This document shows positions 7,179 to 57,393 of a stretch of DNA of 64,000 bases, one piece after another. The first letter of the stretch is position 1; each line of letters starts with the position of its first letter. Both the position numbers and the translations under genes were made by a program. Source of the DNA: Neoroseomonas soli (GTDB lineage Bacteria; Pseudomonadota; Alphaproteobacteria; Acetobacterales; Acetobacteraceae); assembly GCF_018129065.1 (NCBI RefSeq), contig NZ_JAAEDM010000005.1:62001-126000 (forward strand), in the 5' to 3' direction. The notes beneath the pieces are model-generated. The model was not told the origin of the DNA, ran no database searches, and saw only the letters and a program-made list of their open reading frames with translations.

Positions 7179-8378
7179 TCAGGGGGCCACCGAACCTGAT
7201 CCCTCGGGGTTTCCCCGCACCGCGCCGCCCGTCGACGCGGCCGGCGGCACGAGGCAGAGATCGAGCGCAGCCCGGATCCTCGCCTCCGACATCTCCTGGC
7301 CGATGAAGGCGATTTCCTGCCGTCGGTCTCCGAACGGCTCCTGCCATTGTGCCGCCAGCCAGCGGCGCCAGGCCTCCTGCTGCGGCCAGGCCTGGCGGGG
7401 GCGGGTCGCCCACCAGGGGCCGGCCACGGTCAGCCGCCGCTGGCCGCCGGCCAGGTGCCATTCCATCGCCAGGTCGTGGCGGTCCGCCAGCCATGCGACG
7501 CCCTTCGCCCGCAGCACGCCCGGCAGCGGCGTGCGCAGCAGGGTGGCGAAGCGCTGCGGGTCCAGCGGCCGCCGGGCCCGCCAGACGAAGGACCGGATGC
7601 CGAACTCCTCGCTCTCCGGCACATGTTCCCCGGCCAGGGCGCGCGCCCAGCCCGGCGAGGCGCGCGCGCGCAGCGGATCGAAGCGGGCCGTGCCGATGAG
7701 TGTCGAGGGCGGGACTTCGCCCTCGACGCAGGGAATGACCTCCGCCGAGGGGTTCATGGCGCGCAGCAGGCCCACGAGCTGGCGCAGCTTCGCCGGCGAC
7801 AGCAGGTCCGCCTTGTTCAGCAGGATGACGTCGGCGAACTCGACCTGGTCCGCCAGGAGTTCGACCAGCTGGCGCGCATCCTCGCCACTGGCCGCGAGCC
7901 CACGGTCGGCCAGCCGGTCCCTGCTGCAGTAGTCGGCAAGGAAGGACGGGCCGTCCACCACCGTGACCATGGTGTCGAGCCGCGCGACCTGGCTGAGGAC
8001 GAGGCCGCCGGGACCCGGCAGGTCGAAGCCTGCGGCGACGGGCATGGGTTCGCTGATGCCGGTGCTTTCGATGACGAGCGCGTCGAAGCGGCCCGCGCGG
8101 GCGAGGCCGGCGACCTCGGTGATCAGTTCCTCGCGCAGCGTGCAGCAGATGCAGCCGTTCGAGAGTTCGACCAGCCGGTCATGGCCGCGGGGCAGGATCC
8201 CGATGGCATCCAGCAGCCCCGCGTCGAGGTTGGTCTCCGCCATGTCGTTGACGATGACGGCAAGGCGCAGGCCGGTGGGGGCGGCAAGCAACCGGCGCAG
8301 GACCGTCGTCTTCCCCGAGCCCAGGAAGCCGGACAGCACCGTGACCGGCAGGCGCGCCTCGGCTGCTGCCGCGGTCAT
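7179..8378 (-). CDS. CobW/ZNG1-family GTP-dependent metallochaperone
   Basis: 399 residues. The reading frame is open to 8654, but the start at 8378 puts the Met just before the conserved L-P-V-T-V-L-S-G-F-L-G-S-G-K-T-T P-loop (residues 11-25), as in family members. Further motifs are V-N-D-M-A-E near 44 and the metal-binding C-I-C-C (Cys76, 78, 79) within N-G-C-I-C-C-T-L-R. Also present are N-K-A-D-L near 180 for guanine recognition and a C-terminal CobW_C domain. These GTPases deliver zinc (or cobalt) to client metalloenzymes. The gene is divergent from the type I secretion operon across an AT-richer spacer. No convincing Zur-box palindrome was found there by eye, so regulation is open. Confidence 0.88.
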   Translation of the reverse strand: MTAAAAEARLPVTVLSGFLGSGKTTVLRRLLAAPTGLRLAVIVNDMAETNLDAGLLDAIGILPRGHDRLVELSNGCICCTLREELITEVAGLARAGRFDALVIESTGISEPMPVAAGFDLPGPGGLVLSQVARLDTMVTVVDGPSFLADYCSRDRLADRGLAASGEDARQLVELLADQVEFADVILLNKADLLSPAKLRQLVGLLRAMNPSAEVIPCVEGEVPPSTLIGTARFDPLRARASPGWARALAGEHVPESEEFGIRSFVWRARRPLDPQRFATLLRTPLPGVLRAKGVAWLADRHDLAMEWHLAGGQRRLTVAGPWWATRPRQAWPQQEAWRRWLAAQWQEPFGDRRQEIAFIGQEMSEARIRAALDLCLVPPAASTGGAVRGNPEGSGSVAP

Positions 8379-38248: not shown

Positions 38249-39451
38249 ATGCCGTCACTCGCCCAACGCCTGAACGACGTCTCCATCTCCGCCTCCGTCG
38301 TTATGACGATGAAGGGGCGCGAACTCGCGGCGAAGGGGATCAAGGTGATCAGCCTTGCCTCCGGCGAGCCCGACTTCCCGACGCCGATGCATGCCATCGA
38401 GGCCGCGCACAAGGCCGCGCTCGCCGGCGACACCAAGTACCCCCCGCAGGACGGCACCAGGGAACTGAAGGAAGCCATCCAGCGCAAGTTCAAGCGCGAC
38501 AACAACATCGACTACGCGCTCGACGAGGTCATGGTCGCCAATGGCGGCAAGCAGTGCATCTACAACGCCTTCATGGCGACAGTGGATCCGGGCGACGAGG
38601 TGGTGATCCCCGCGCCCTACTGGATCTCCTACGCCGACATGGCGAAGGTCGCTGGCGGCAAGCCGGTGCTGGTCTCCTGCCCGCAGAACAACGGCTTCAA
38701 GCTGCGCCCCGAGGACCTCGACGCCGCCATCACCCCCAAGACCAAGTGGGTGATGCTGAACTTCCCGAACAACCCGACCGGTGCGGCCTGCTCGCGCGAG
38801 GAGATGAAGGCGATCGCCGAGGTGCTGAAGAAGCACCCGCATGTCTGGGTCATGACCGACGACATGTATGAGCACCTCGTCTATGACGGCTTCGAGTTCT
38901 GCACCATCGCCGAGGTCGCGCCGGAACTGAAGAACCGCACCCTGACTGTCAACGGTGCCTCCAAGACCTACGCCATGACCGGCTGGCGCGTCGGCTTCTG
39001 CGGCGGGCCGAAGGAGTTGATCAAGGCGATGGTCAACATGCAGGGCCAGGCGACCTCCGGCATCTCCACCGTCGGCCAGGCCGCCGCCGCTGCCGCCCTG
39101 GACGGCCCGCAGGACCTGGTGCGCGAGCGCGCCGAGGAATACCGCCGCCGTCGCGACCTGGTGGTGGACATGCTGAACGCTGCGCCGGGCATCGCATGCC
39201 ACAAGCCCGAAGGCGCCTTCTACGTCTTCCCGAACATCGCCGGCTGCCTCGGCAAGACCACCAAGGCGGGCAGGAAGATCGACACCGACACCGACTTCGC
39301 CCTCGCCCTGCTCGAGGAAAAGCACGTCGCCGCCGTGCAGGGCGCGGCCTACGGCATGTCGCCGTATCTGCGCATCTCCTACGCGACGGACACCGAGAGC
39401 CTGCGCGAGGCCTGCGCCCGCATCCAGGAGTTCTGCAAGGAACTCGCGTGA
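38249..39451 (+). CDS. Class I PLP-dependent aminotransferase (aspartate aminotransferase type), paralogue
   Basis: 400 residues from ATG 38249, with AAGGAGGG upstream; the open frame reaches far into the preceding gene, but that part is shadow. It carries the same I-gamma AAT signatures as the gene at 34756: L-A-S-G-E-P-D-F-P-T-P, N-F-P-N-N-P-T-G and the PLP lysine in N-G-A-S-K-T-Y-A-M-T-G-W-R-V-G. The C-terminal L-R-I-S-Y-A contains the carboxylate-binding Arg. The two proteins are equal in length and align without gaps over long stretches by eye. Different substrate preferences are plausible. A tandem repeat begins four bases after its stop. Confidence 0.9.
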   Translation: MPSLAQRLNDVSISASVVMTMKGRELAAKGIKVISLASGEPDFPTPMHAIEAAHKAALAGDTKYPPQDGTRELKEAIQRKFKRDNNIDYALDEVMVANGGKQCIYNAFMATVDPGDEVVIPAPYWISYADMAKVAGGKPVLVSCPQNNGFKLRPEDLDAAITPKTKWVMLNFPNNPTGAACSREEMKAIAEVLKKHPHVWVMTDDMYEHLVYDGFEFCTIAEVAPELKNRTLTVNGASKTYAMTGWRVGFCGGPKELIKAMVNMQGQATSGISTVGQAAAAAALDGPQDLVRERAEEYRRRRDLVVDMLNAAPGIACHKPEGAFYVFPNIAGCLGKTTKAGRKIDTDTDFALALLEEKHVAAVQGAAYGMSPYLRISYATDTESLREACARIQEFCKELA

Positions 39452-39454
39452 GCG

Positions 39455-39605
39455 TGCATCCGATGACCGCAGGGCGCAGGCGCCGAGGGCGCCGAGCACC
39501 GGAGGTCTGAATCGGATGCACCATCATGCGATGCATCCGATGACCGCAGGGCGCAGGCGCCGAGGGCGCCGAGCGCCGGAGGTCTGAATCGGATGCACCA
39601 TCATG
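39455..39605 (+). repeat. Tandem 77-bp direct repeat with inverted ends, overlapping a gene start
   Basis: Two copies of a 74-base unit (39455-39528 and 39532-39605, period 77) differ at one visible position (A/G in GAGC-A/G-CCGG). Each unit starts TGCATCCGAT and carries the inverse complement ATCGGATGCA near its end, so it can fold into a long hairpin with a further GACC/GGTC pairing inside. Each copy also carries GGAGGT nine bases before an ATG. The second ATG (39593) starts the double-GNAT gene, so the duplication copied its translation start. Confidence 0.8.
39516..39587 (+). CDS. Possible 23-codon Arg-rich leader ORF upstream of the double-GNAT gene
   Basis: Starts at the ATG of the first repeat copy (GGAGGT nine bases upstream), reads M-H-H-H-A-M-H-P-M-T-A-G and then an Arg-rich run, and stops at 39585-39587, five bases before the start of the double-GNAT gene. 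Its first four codons are identical to the start of that gene. It may be translated and couple to the gene downstream, or it may simply be the by-product of the duplication. Confidence 0.3.
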   Translation: MHHHAMHPMTAGRRRRGRRAPEV

Positions 39606-40591
39606 AAATCCGGGCGGGCAAGGACAGCGACGCCGAGGGCTTCATCGCCCTCATCGGCGGCTGCTGGGCTGAGTATCCCGGCTGCATCCTCGACGTGGAT
39701 GGCGAGGTGCCCGAACTGCGGGCCCTCGCCACCTGGTTCCGCGGCCAGGGCGGCACGCTCTGGGCCGCGGAGCGGGAAGGGCGCCTGATCGGCATGATCG
39801 GCACCCGCCCGCTGAAGGAAGACGGTGCCTGGGAGATCTGCCGCATGTATGTCGATGCCGGCGCGCGCGGCGCCGGCCTCGCCGCCGACCTCCTGCGCAC
39901 GGCCGAAACCCATGCGCGTGACGCCGGGGCGGAGCGGATGGTCCTCTGGACCGACACCCGCTTCACCCGCGCGCACGGCTTCTACGAGAAGCACGGCTAT
40001 GTCCGGCAGGGTTCCATCCGGATCCTCGACGACATCTCCCACTCGCTCGAATTCCGTTACGCGAAGCCGGCGAAGGGCCTGGTGGTGGAGGCGCTGGACG
40101 CCGCCGCGGCCGCCAGCGCGGAACGCCGCCTTGCCGAGATCCTGATCGCCTGCGTGGCGGAGGGAGCCTCGCTGGAATTCCTCCCGCCGCTCTCGCGCGA
40201 CCGCGCGCTGGCCTTCTGGAAGGGTGCTTCGGCCGCCGTGGCCGCCGGGCAGCGCGTGCTGCTCGCGGCCTGGCTCGATGGCCGGCTGGCGGGGACGGCG
40301 ACGCTCGAACTCGTCACGTCCGAGAACCAGCCGCATGTCGTCGGCATCCAGAAGCTGATGGTCGATCCGCCGGCGCGGCGCGCGGGCATCGGCCGCGCGC
40401 TGCTGCGCCGGGCGGAGCAGGCCGCCCGCGCACATGGCCGCCGGCTGGCGATGCTCGACACGCGCCGGGGCAGCGCCGCCGAGGCCCTGTACCGCGAGCA
40501 GGGCTGGACCGAACTCGGGTGCATCCCCGGCTTCGAACTGGACGCCGCCCGCACGCCGCAGGACACCGTCTTTTTCTACAAGGCGGTGTGA
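39593..40591 (+). CDS. Double-domain GNAT N-acetyltransferase
   Basis: 332 residues with two tandem GNAT domains. Domain 1 (~3-160) has the acetyl-CoA loop A-R-G-A-G-L-A-A-D-L-L near 91 and Y-E-K-H-G-Y-V near 127. Domain 2 (~163-332) has A-R-R-A-G-I-G-R-A-L-L near 262 and Y-R-E-Q-G-W-T near 301. Both pyrophosphate-binding loops look intact, so both halves may bind acetyl-CoA. The substrate is unknown. The start codon and ribosome-binding site lie in the second copy of the 77-bp repeat. No operon partner is evident upstream; the PhyH gene follows after 28 bases with its own AAGGAG. Confidence 0.87.
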   Translation: MHHHEIRAGKDSDAEGFIALIGGCWAEYPGCILDVDGEVPELRALATWFRGQGGTLWAAEREGRLIGMIGTRPLKEDGAWEICRMYVDAGARGAGLAADLLRTAETHARDAGAERMVLWTDTRFTRAHGFYEKHGYVRQGSIRILDDISHSLEFRYAKPAKGLVVEALDAAAAASAERRLAEILIACVAEGASLEFLPPLSRDRALAFWKGASAAVAAGQRVLLAAWLDGRLAGTATLELVTSENQPHVVGIQKLMVDPPARRAGIGRALLRRAEQAARAHGRRLAMLDTRRGSAAEALYREQGWTELGCIPGFELDAARTPQDTVFFYKAV

Positions 40592-56007: not shown

Positions 56008-57393
56008 ATGTTCGAGGCATTGTCCAGCAAGCTGAACGGGGTCTTCGATCGGCTGCGCCGCCGCGGCGCGCTGTCGGAGGCCGACGTCACCGAGGCGCTG
56101 CGCGAGGTCCGCGTCGCGCTGCTGGAGGCCGACGTCGCGCTCCCGGTGGTCCGCGACCTGGTCAACAAGGTCCGCGAGCGCGCGGTGGGGCAGGAGGTGC
56201 TGCGCTCCGTCTCCCCCGCGCAGCAGGTCGTCAAGATCGTCAACGATGCGCTCGTCGAAGCGCTCGGCGGCGGCGAGGGCGATGACGGCAAGCGCGGCAT
56301 CGACCTGAACGCGCCGTCCCCGGTGCCGATCCTGATGGTCGGCCTGCAGGGCTCGGGCAAGACGACCACCTCGGGCAAGATCGCGCTGCGGCTGCGGACC
56401 AAGGACCGCAAGAAGGTCCTGCTCGCCTCGCTCGACGTGCATCGCCCGGCGGCGCAGTTGCAGTTGCAGACCCTGGCGCAGCAGGCGGAAGTCACCTCCC
56501 TGCCGATCGTGCCGGGCCAGACGCCGATCCAGATCGCCGCCCGCGCGATGGATGTCGGCCGGCGCGAACTCTACGACGTCGTCATCCTCGACACCGCCGG
56601 CCGCCTCGCCATCGACGAGGCGCTGATGGAGGAGGTGGCGCAGGTCAAGCTCGCCACCAACCCGCACGAGACGCTGCTGGTCGTGGACGCCATGACCGGC
56701 CAGGACGCGGTGAACACGGCCCGCGCCTTCCAGGACAAGGTCGGCGTCACCGGCATCGTCATGACGCGCATCGACGGCGATGCGCGCGGCGGTGCCGCGC
56801 TGTCCATGCGCGCGGTCACCGGCGCGCCGATCAAGCTGCTGGGCGCGGGCGAGAAGCTCGACGCGCTCGAGGACTTCCATCCGGACCGCATCGCCTCGCG
56901 CATCCTCGGCATGGGCGACATCGTCTCCCTGGTCGAGAAGGCCGCGGCGACGATCGACCAGGCCGAGGCCGAGAAGCTCGCGGCCCGGATGCAGAAGGGC
57001 AAGTTCACGCTGGAAGACTACGCGGCCCAGCTCAAGCAGATCGGCAAGATGGGCAGCCTGCAGGGCATCCTCGGGATGCTGCCGGGTGTCGGCAAGATCA
57101 AGCAGCAGTTGAACGACGCGAACCTGGATACCTCGATCCTGAAGCGTCAGGCCGCGATCATCGGCTCGATGACGGCGAAGGAGCGGCGTTTCCCGGATGT
57201 GATCAAGGCGTCGCGCAAGAAGCGCATCGCCGCCGGGTCCGGGACTTCGGTTCAGGAAGTGAACAAGCTGCTCAAGCAGTTCGACGACATGTCCGCGATG
57301 ATGAAGCGGATGAACAAGCTCGGCCAGAAGGGGCTGATGCGTGGCGGGCTCGCCGCGTTGCTCCCCGGGGCCGGAAACAAGCGACCATTCTAG
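56008..57393 (+). CDS. ffh: Signal recognition particle protein Ffh
   Basis: 461 residues with the N, G and M domains in order. The G domain (~100-295) shows G-L-Q-G-S-G-K-T-T near 113, D-V-H-R-P-A-A near 152, D-T-A-G-R near 194, and T-R-I-D-G-D-A-R-G-G-A-A near 251. The C-terminal methionine-rich M domain (~325-440) includes L-G-M-L-P-G-V-G-K. Ffh binds signal peptides of nascent membrane proteins together with 4.5S RNA and docks at FtsY. It heads the ffh-rpsP-rimM-trmD-rplS cluster, a conserved bacterial arrangement. Confidence 0.96.
   Translation: MFEALSSKLNGVFDRLRRRGALSEADVTEALREVRVALLEADVALPVVRDLVNKVRERAVGQEVLRSVSPAQQVVKIVNDALVEALGGGEGDDGKRGIDLNAPSPVPILMVGLQGSGKTTTSGKIALRLRTKDRKKVLLASLDVHRPAAQLQLQTLAQQAEVTSLPIVPGQTPIQIAARAMDVGRRELYDVVILDTAGRLAIDEALMEEVAQVKLATNPHETLLVVDAMTGQDAVNTARAFQDKVGVTGIVMTRIDGDARGGAALSMRAVTGAPIKLLGAGEKLDALEDFHPDRIASRILGMGDIVSLVEKAAATIDQAEAEKLAARMQKGKFTLEDYAAQLKQIGKMGSLQGILGMLPGVGKIKQQLNDANLDTSILKRQAAIIGSMTAKERRFPDVIKASRKKRIAAGSGTSVQEVNKLLKQFDDMSAMMKRMNKLGQKGLMRGGLAALLPGAGNKRPF

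Follow-up and report, generated by a model that had tools for sequence, protein, structure and literature searches.

Head-to-tail copies of a dispersed palindromic element at an aminotransferase–acetyltransferase gene junction in the Acetobacteraceae

Integron attC sites are hairpins with bulges, an unpaired spacer and a variable apex that lie behind the stop codon of a gene, and the terminal inverted repeats that are read by DDE transposases have conserved ends. Lichenicola cladoniae is presumably a member of the Acetobacteraceae, the family to which the locus described here belongs. Its palindromes have been counted mechanically, according to passages of the RepRanger paper (PMC12306157), which also cite a study in which E. 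coli REPs less than 16 nt from a stop codon act on translation. REPs of the GTAG and CGTC superfamilies are short dispersed palindromes with varied stems, some of them clustered; those of the CGTC type are described, in sections of PMC3733652, as having no dedicated transposase, and the same sections name the Acetobacteraceae among the families that have no CGTC repeats. A search of open-licence papers found none on the Acetobacteraceae repeat that is the subject of this work.

The repeat lies between the genes for a class I/II aminotransferase and a double-GNAT acetyltransferase in a 64,000-nt window, the whole stretch of DNA that was analysed (Table 1). Comparison with named relatives puts the window within the Acetobacteraceae, in Neoroseomonas or close to it. 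The initial annotation had described it as a tandem 77-bp repeat of two nearly identical units that share inverted ends, a ribosome-binding site and a start codon, the first unit opening a leader open reading frame (ORF) that ends five bases before the true gene, and re-analysis bears all of this out. The two 74-nt units start 77 nt apart and differ at a single position; TRF gives them a period of 77 and a score of 295, the top one of its 28 rows for the window. Both have perfect 10-nt inverted ends (TGCATCCGAT/ATCGGATGCA), and the 10-mer has four exact matches in the 64 kb, all within the repeat. Each unit also carries GGAGGT with an ATG 9 nt after it and is a near-perfect palindrome: folded alone, the copies reach −40.2 (z = −4.9) and −45.1 kcal/mol (z = −5.6), with 0 of 200 shuffles as good for either. 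They are 97% identical over the model columns (see below) and 98–99% identical over the whole unit. The leader ORF has 23 codons (MHHHAMHPMTAGRRRRGRRAPEV) and its TGA ends 5 bases before the ATG of the GNAT gene, which is the only start in frame downstream of the last in-frame stop and ahead of the conserved GNAT block.

Table 1. Features of the aminotransferase–GNAT junction, in window coordinates.
Feature	Position	Strand	Basis
Aminotransferase class I/II (upstream gene), stop TGA 39449–39451; start ATG 38249 is our choice	38249–39451	+	Translation; Pfam PF00155
Element copy 1: hairpin with P1 of 10 bp, 3-nt bulge TGA, P2 of 4 bp, GNA/GNA 3×3 loop, variable apex	39455–39520	+	Covariance models R1 (94 bits) and R2 (80.9 bits); fold
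Element copy 2: anatomy as copy 1; GNAT start codon in 3′ arm	39532–39597	+	R1 (94.9 bits) and R2 (78.6 bits); fold
Direct-repeat unit 1, 74 nt, followed by 3-nt spacer CGA	39455–39528	+	Self-comparison; TRF
Direct-repeat unit 2, 74 nt	39532–39605	+	Self-comparison; TRF
SD-like GGAGGT, copy 1	39501–39506	+	Sequence
SD-like GGAGGT, copy 2, presumed SD of GNAT	39578–39583	+	Sequence; GGAGGT precedes the GNAT ATG also in G010, G016 and G018
Leader ORF, 23 codons, created by doubling; judged a by-product	39516–39587	+	ORF translation; family-wide element counts
Double-GNAT acetyltransferase gene, ATG in element 3′ arm	39593–40591	+	Pfam PF00583, two stretches; in-frame start check

Judged by sequence comparison, the doubled unit is a pair of head-to-tail copies of a dispersed hairpin element, not a duplicated gene start. 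The statement that the repeat duplicates a translation start is thus correct locally, but the unit belongs to a dispersed family that brought the start along. A blastn search of the repeat region against the genome from which the window comes (hereafter the host genome) returned diverged relatives, one of which is also a tandem pair. A covariance model built from 7 copies (R1) found at least 14 copies in the host genome (E < 0.01) and copies in 19 of 23 genus genomes. A second model (R2), built from 134 copies in a set that comprised 97 of 98 loci at a stricter E, found at least 20 copies in the host genome (E ≤ 0.001) and one or more in 34 of the 35 genus genomes. At the level of the order, at least 52 of 200 genomes were positive with R2, all of them in the Acetobacteraceae and distributed over 20 of 51 genera, and at the level of the class, under strict filters, the only positive among 289 genomes was the host genome itself. 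Ten Acetobacteraceae genomes had at least 25 to 27 matches each among the best 27 candidates scored; these and the other copy numbers from the genome searches are lower bounds, with the best 19–150 candidates scored per genome. Unselected 400-kb samples held 15 copies in one genome (G170) and 5 in another (G099). Outside the family, one genome of the class (G036) matched R1 weakly (E = 0.059) and R2 not at all, and a weak R2 match at position 56242 of the window (E = 0.046), in what its motifs suggest is an SRP54/ffh gene, was dismissed as chance. The single genus genome without a detectable copy (G004), whose close relatives have 7–20 copies, provides a useful empty-site reference.

The element is about 48–92 nt long and arrays of up to five copies occur: 26 of 99 clusters are arrays, a count in which two sites appear twice (L066/L134 and L075/L145), so that the clusters represent 97 sites, and from which six antisense duplicate matches were dropped. 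In a stricter set of 24 arrays with 36 adjacent copy pairs, in both of which L075/L145 is again counted twice, adjacent copies have a mean identity of 93%, versus 54% between random loci. The 99% identity of the two copies at the GNAT junction, together with the frequency of arrays in the family, points to a recent duplication. A blastn search of a plasmid collection for distant matches returned none; Rfam gave six matches around the site, all far below the gathering score, and none over nine further loci.

The anatomy of the hairpin was read from 123 distinct copies. The outer half of the 10-bp P1 stem is variable and the inner half is fixed as CCGAT/ATCGG; the 3-nt bulge on the 3′ side reads TGA in 96 of the 123 copies; the 4-bp P2 stem takes forms such as GACC/GGTC, CGCC/GGCG and CGTC/GACG; and the 3×3 internal loop is GNA/GNA in 105, beneath an apex that varies in length and sequence. 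Paired cells make up 92.0% of 2534, a percentage inflated by an alignment that was fitted to the structure, as against 74.7% in shuffled and 26–43% in slid controls; 19 of the 24 stem pairs have changes on both sides, and 0 of 500 shuffles match any of five measures. By our reading the bulge lacks the following tandem G-A pairs of a K-turn, and that assignment was rejected. At one conserved junction, where the upstream protein ends in ...LPKLEV or similar, three genomes (L113, L115 and L130) have an apex extended by about 40 nt that contains an extra inner hairpin, with the base of the element unchanged. Beside another copy in the host genome (L003, contig C93, about 8263–8362) lie the palindromic stretches GGGAGGCGGCGCCTCCC and CAGGAAACTGAGTTTCCTG, which possibly represent a second repeat family or a terminator.

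Judged by our own codon-usage frame score rather than by annotation, the upstream gene and the element have the same orientation in 88 of the 99 clusters; both neighbours share it in 72 and both lie on the opposite strand in 5. In most copies the 5′ side of the element faces the stop codon, which ends exactly at the element in 30 of 88 cases, between −5 and +3 nt from it in 65 and between −5 and +14 nt in 79. In the unselected samples a sense stop lay at −3 to 0 in 11 of 15 clusters and both neighbours were on the other strand in 3; one cluster gave no clear reading. A specific insertion into TGA is not supported, as TGA makes up 74 of 84 element-adjacent stops versus a baseline of 64 of 80 at the same loci; in G170, six of the seven element-adjacent stops are TAG or TAA, though TGA ends 164 of 211 training ORFs. 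A selenocysteine element behind UGA was likewise rejected, since relatives whose site is empty end the gene at this same TGA. Stop adjacency in a mostly sense orientation is equally expected of an RNA or translational function, and maintenance at the DNA level alone does not account for it.

Comparison of copy number at the GNAT junction, which had been proposed as a check, found 0, 1 or 2 copies or remnants among the relatives. Of the 29 genus genomes with GNAT, 28 were read (in G043 the gene is cut by contig ends), and the in-frame start of GNAT was checked in 12 of these. Three genomes (G003, G004 and G011) have no element, and in them the start of GNAT and the stop of the aminotransferase overlap as GTGA; G014 has a GTGA start with about 20 extra bases and no recognisable element, and in a more distant low-GC clade of 14 genomes a few bases separate the two genes. 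The model found one copy in G010 and G018, two copies that are 84% identical to each other in G016, and in the oryzicola record (L177, taken as G021) a degenerate copy of 25.8 bits that has lost its 5′ arm. Among 80 named loci, the four with model matches at E ≤ 0.01 (L188, L183, L180 and L177) all lie at this junction. Remnants in G020, G006 and G044 were read by eye only, and the model search of the named records taken as G020 and G044 (L179 and L184) gave no match at E ≤ 1. G001 (L154) and G012 (L159) have another, longer insertion at this junction, one that brings inverted repeats of its own (e.g. GAGGGGC...GCCCCTC), as if this place were tolerant of, or attractive to, insertions.

In all eight carriers, three of them judged by eye, GNAT has an in-frame ATG or GTG at the place of the 3′ arm of the element. 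In the host genome, G016, G020 and G006 the region from the last stop to the conserved block has no other in-frame start; a further, more distant one exists in G010, G018 and G021, and a nearer second ATG in G044. The 5′ half of the element has been lost or has decayed in G021 and, as read by eye, also in G020 and G006, with a G-rich stretch and the start retained; no other observation speaks as strongly for donation of the GNAT start by the element. In the protein tree, in which the row of G010 lacks the aminotransferase part and is 46% filled, carriers fall in three places, with moderate support around the host genome (82–93 bootstrap), and the patchy presence fits one old insertion with clean losses and several insertions at one spot alike. 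Four empty sites in G004, read by eye, are stop/start overlaps (GTGA, ATGA, GTGA and TGATG). The empty-site table for this genome has 14 rows, of which five represent a single junction of low identity (67–72%) that was not used and four the GNAT junction; L043, L117 and L141 were read as further empty sites, and L083 and L144 are not simple empty sites. A search for target-site duplication gave suggestive TGA repeats at the GNAT site and no consistent rule over the empty sites.

We infer that the insertion turned an overlapping and presumably coupled gene pair into genes 141 bases apart, with the GNAT start in a stable stem. In a 280-nt fold that includes the flanks, the second ribosome-binding site and the start sit in the hairpin of their own copy, with computed unpaired probabilities of 0.437 for the SD and 0.000 for the ATG, the same with one copy or two; with a ribosome modelled on the upstream stop, the ATG is still unpaired to no more than 0.21 with two copies and 0.27 with one. 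The suggestion that alternative hairpins hide the second ribosome-binding site calls for correction: a long hairpin between copy 1 and copy 2 does appear in a flankless 146-nt fold, but such predicted alternatives are not favoured in the longer context. As the ATG is buried in the stem, translational coupling to GNAT is probably weakened, and the hairpin may act locally on how GNAT is translated. In one screen described in parts of PMC12548453, coupling was weaker where structure was predicted directly after the upstream stop. GNAT would be expected to be weakly translated and less dependent on the aminotransferase, with little difference between one copy and two.

The repeat had been read as either a leader that regulates translation of the acetyltransferase or a very recent slippage event. 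Plain replication slippage, in which a gene-start region present only once was doubled and no element took part, would agree with two units that stand in perfect tandem at such high identity, but it is refuted as the whole account by the diverged relatives of the unit elsewhere in the genome and family-wide and by relatives that have a single copy or an empty site at this junction; we therefore think it very improbable in that form, and slippage likely remains the mechanism of the doubling. A regulatory leader, in which the tandem hairpins and the 23-codon ORF would control GNAT by attenuation or by a termination–reinitiation relay from the aminotransferase stop, can draw on the ATG computed as fully paired and the SD as about half paired, on the stop-adjacent, sense position of most copies and on the unfolding and reinitiation models of coupling described in sections of PMC12548453. 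Moreover, at both junctions with two copies (the host genome and G016) the frame of copy 1, which starts with ATG in the host genome and, by our reading, with GTG in G016, reaches the TGA 5 nt before the GNAT ATG, but two cases of two are weak evidence. We nevertheless regard such a leader as unlikely. Its parts are unconserved, the SD (GGAGG) being present in 51, the ATG of the 3′ arm in 35 and an open mini-ORF in 47 of the 123 distinct copies (71 have an ATG at the top of the 5′ arm); the spacing that the leader frame needs, 2 modulo 3, is found in only 9 of the 24 arrays, with 0 in 11 and 1 in 4, or at 8 of 23 sites when the doubly counted one is removed; predicted accessibility of the SD and the ATG is equal with one copy or two; and the stems lack the sense-strand signature of RNA discussed below. 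A leader peptide or attenuator with a conserved ORF and frame is likewise at odds with these counts, which show no clear frame preference in the arrays. Since copy 1 carries GGAGGT...ATG and 77 is 2 modulo 3, the leader ORF arises automatically from the doubling, and the sequences suggest that it is probably a by-product.

A more serious rival concerns the upstream gene. An RNA-level hairpin module behind stop codons, selected in many operons for ribosome stalling or mRNA stability, would explain why 79 of the 88 scored stops lie so close to the element, has a precedent in the REP effect cited in the passages of PMC12306157 mentioned above and agrees with the pairing kept where several genomes share a junction (groups of up to five genomes occupy the same one; a group of seven lumps two junctions). 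In 83 non-independent species pairs compared at the same junction, 1367 cells are the same, 68 changed on both sides and 93 on one side, 201 are broken in one partner and 17 in both. If a sense-strand stem is kept as RNA, however, G-U cells should outnumber A-C cells, and they do not: the ratio of G-T to A-C is 60:52 when distinct copies are counted and 46:44 when each locus contributes a single copy, a set in which 103 other mismatches represent noise; it is 20:25, with 16 others, in the well-aligned inner P1 and P2; and in the same-junction comparisons 93 one-sided changes that keep the pair stand against 88 A-C breaks and 113 other breaks. By comparison, 35 tRNAs from three of these genomes, all of them used, gave 26:0 (Fisher test against 46:44, 5e-7) and a cruder parse that used 27 of the 35 gave 26:8 (Fisher 0.014), a contrast that is somewhat inflated, as the tRNA finder should favour G-U over A-C and the acceptor register was chosen for most Watson–Crick pairs. 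(Another set, 15 aragorn predictions over all loci, was dropped as a control; one that was read closely is doubtful.) Because there is no excess of G-U over A-C in the stems, we favour maintenance at the DNA level, and an action on the upstream gene, serious as it is, seems to us possible but doubtful. That the pairing is kept at the DNA level and not as regulatory RNA is itself a weaker inference than the identity of the element. It may be preserved through a single-stranded hairpin and template switching, which passages of PMC8794818 propose as a route to two-sided stem changes at inverted repeats, or by some unknown enzyme.

Our preferred reading, to which we give a probability of roughly 0.78, slightly reduced because three carriers were read by eye, is that the locus consists of two head-to-tail dispersed palindromic DNA elements whose entry split a gene pair and donated the GNAT start, with a later doubling and the leader ORF as a by-product. 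The element would have entered the overlapping stop/start junction of the aminotransferase and GNAT genes and separated them; its 3′ half (GGAGGT-CTGAATCGG-ATG) would then have been taken over as the new GNAT start, and the unit would later have been doubled locally by slippage or unequal crossing-over. A recent slippage, as noted originally, may thus describe the doubling but not the whole, as the unit is a dispersed element. More tentatively, and against the odds as we see them, the elements might form an unlisted class of small mobile or formerly mobile hairpins that settle behind stop codons, often in NTGA overlaps, without RAYT or IS200, uncouple operon genes, donate an SD and ATG that outlast the decay of the hairpin, and so rewire coupling family-wide. 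If our reading is right, a large family of bacteria contains a family of repeats that had escaped listing, and a route is shown by which selfish-looking repeats create start codons. It would also provide a natural experiment: the same gene pair occurs with overlapping ends, separated by one hairpin or by two, and with what appears to be the donated start alone, so that the effect of a stop/start overlap on translation can be tested directly. The count of G-T against A-C, for its part, is a simple test of the level, RNA or DNA, at which covarying palindromes are maintained.

With many dispersed extragenic palindromic copies behind stop codons, we rate the element as a REP-like dispersed palindrome in the broad sense, with putative mobility and function. 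It shares with the GTAG and CGTC superfamilies the short dispersed palindromes, the varied stems and some clustering, but REPs measure 20–40 nt and form mainly head-head dimers according to portions of PMC3733652, whereas the element is longer, at about 48–92 nt, forms head-to-tail arrays and is marked by a GNA/GNA inner loop and a TGA bulge, both conserved; by eye, the profiles of its 5′ and 3′ flanks show neither a GTAG nor a CGTC tag. The RAYT/Y1 (IS200) transposase domain PF01797 is absent from the host genome and from all 11 high-copy Acetobacteraceae genomes searched, and it was found in 1 of 29 genus genomes (0 of the 23 good ones), with the control search positive in 5 of 14 known genomes. 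MITEs resemble the element in being small, non-coding and dispersed with inverted ends; in the element conservation lies in the inner CCGAT/ATCGG and the outermost arms are the more variable part, opposite to the pattern of DDE-read terminal repeats, and there is no clear target duplication. Integron attC sites offer the likeness of a bulged hairpin with a variable apex placed behind a stop codon, but no GTTRRRY/RYYYAAC ends were seen by eye in the element and there are no cassettes between its units. E. coli REPs near stops share with it a hairpin close behind a stop codon. About 11% of the E. coli REPs counted in the RepRanger paper lie within 15 nt of a stop, as given in excerpts of PMC12306157, as compared with the 79 of 88 scored stops of the element, whose 3′ arm can, in addition, donate a start codon and whose action on translation would be putative.
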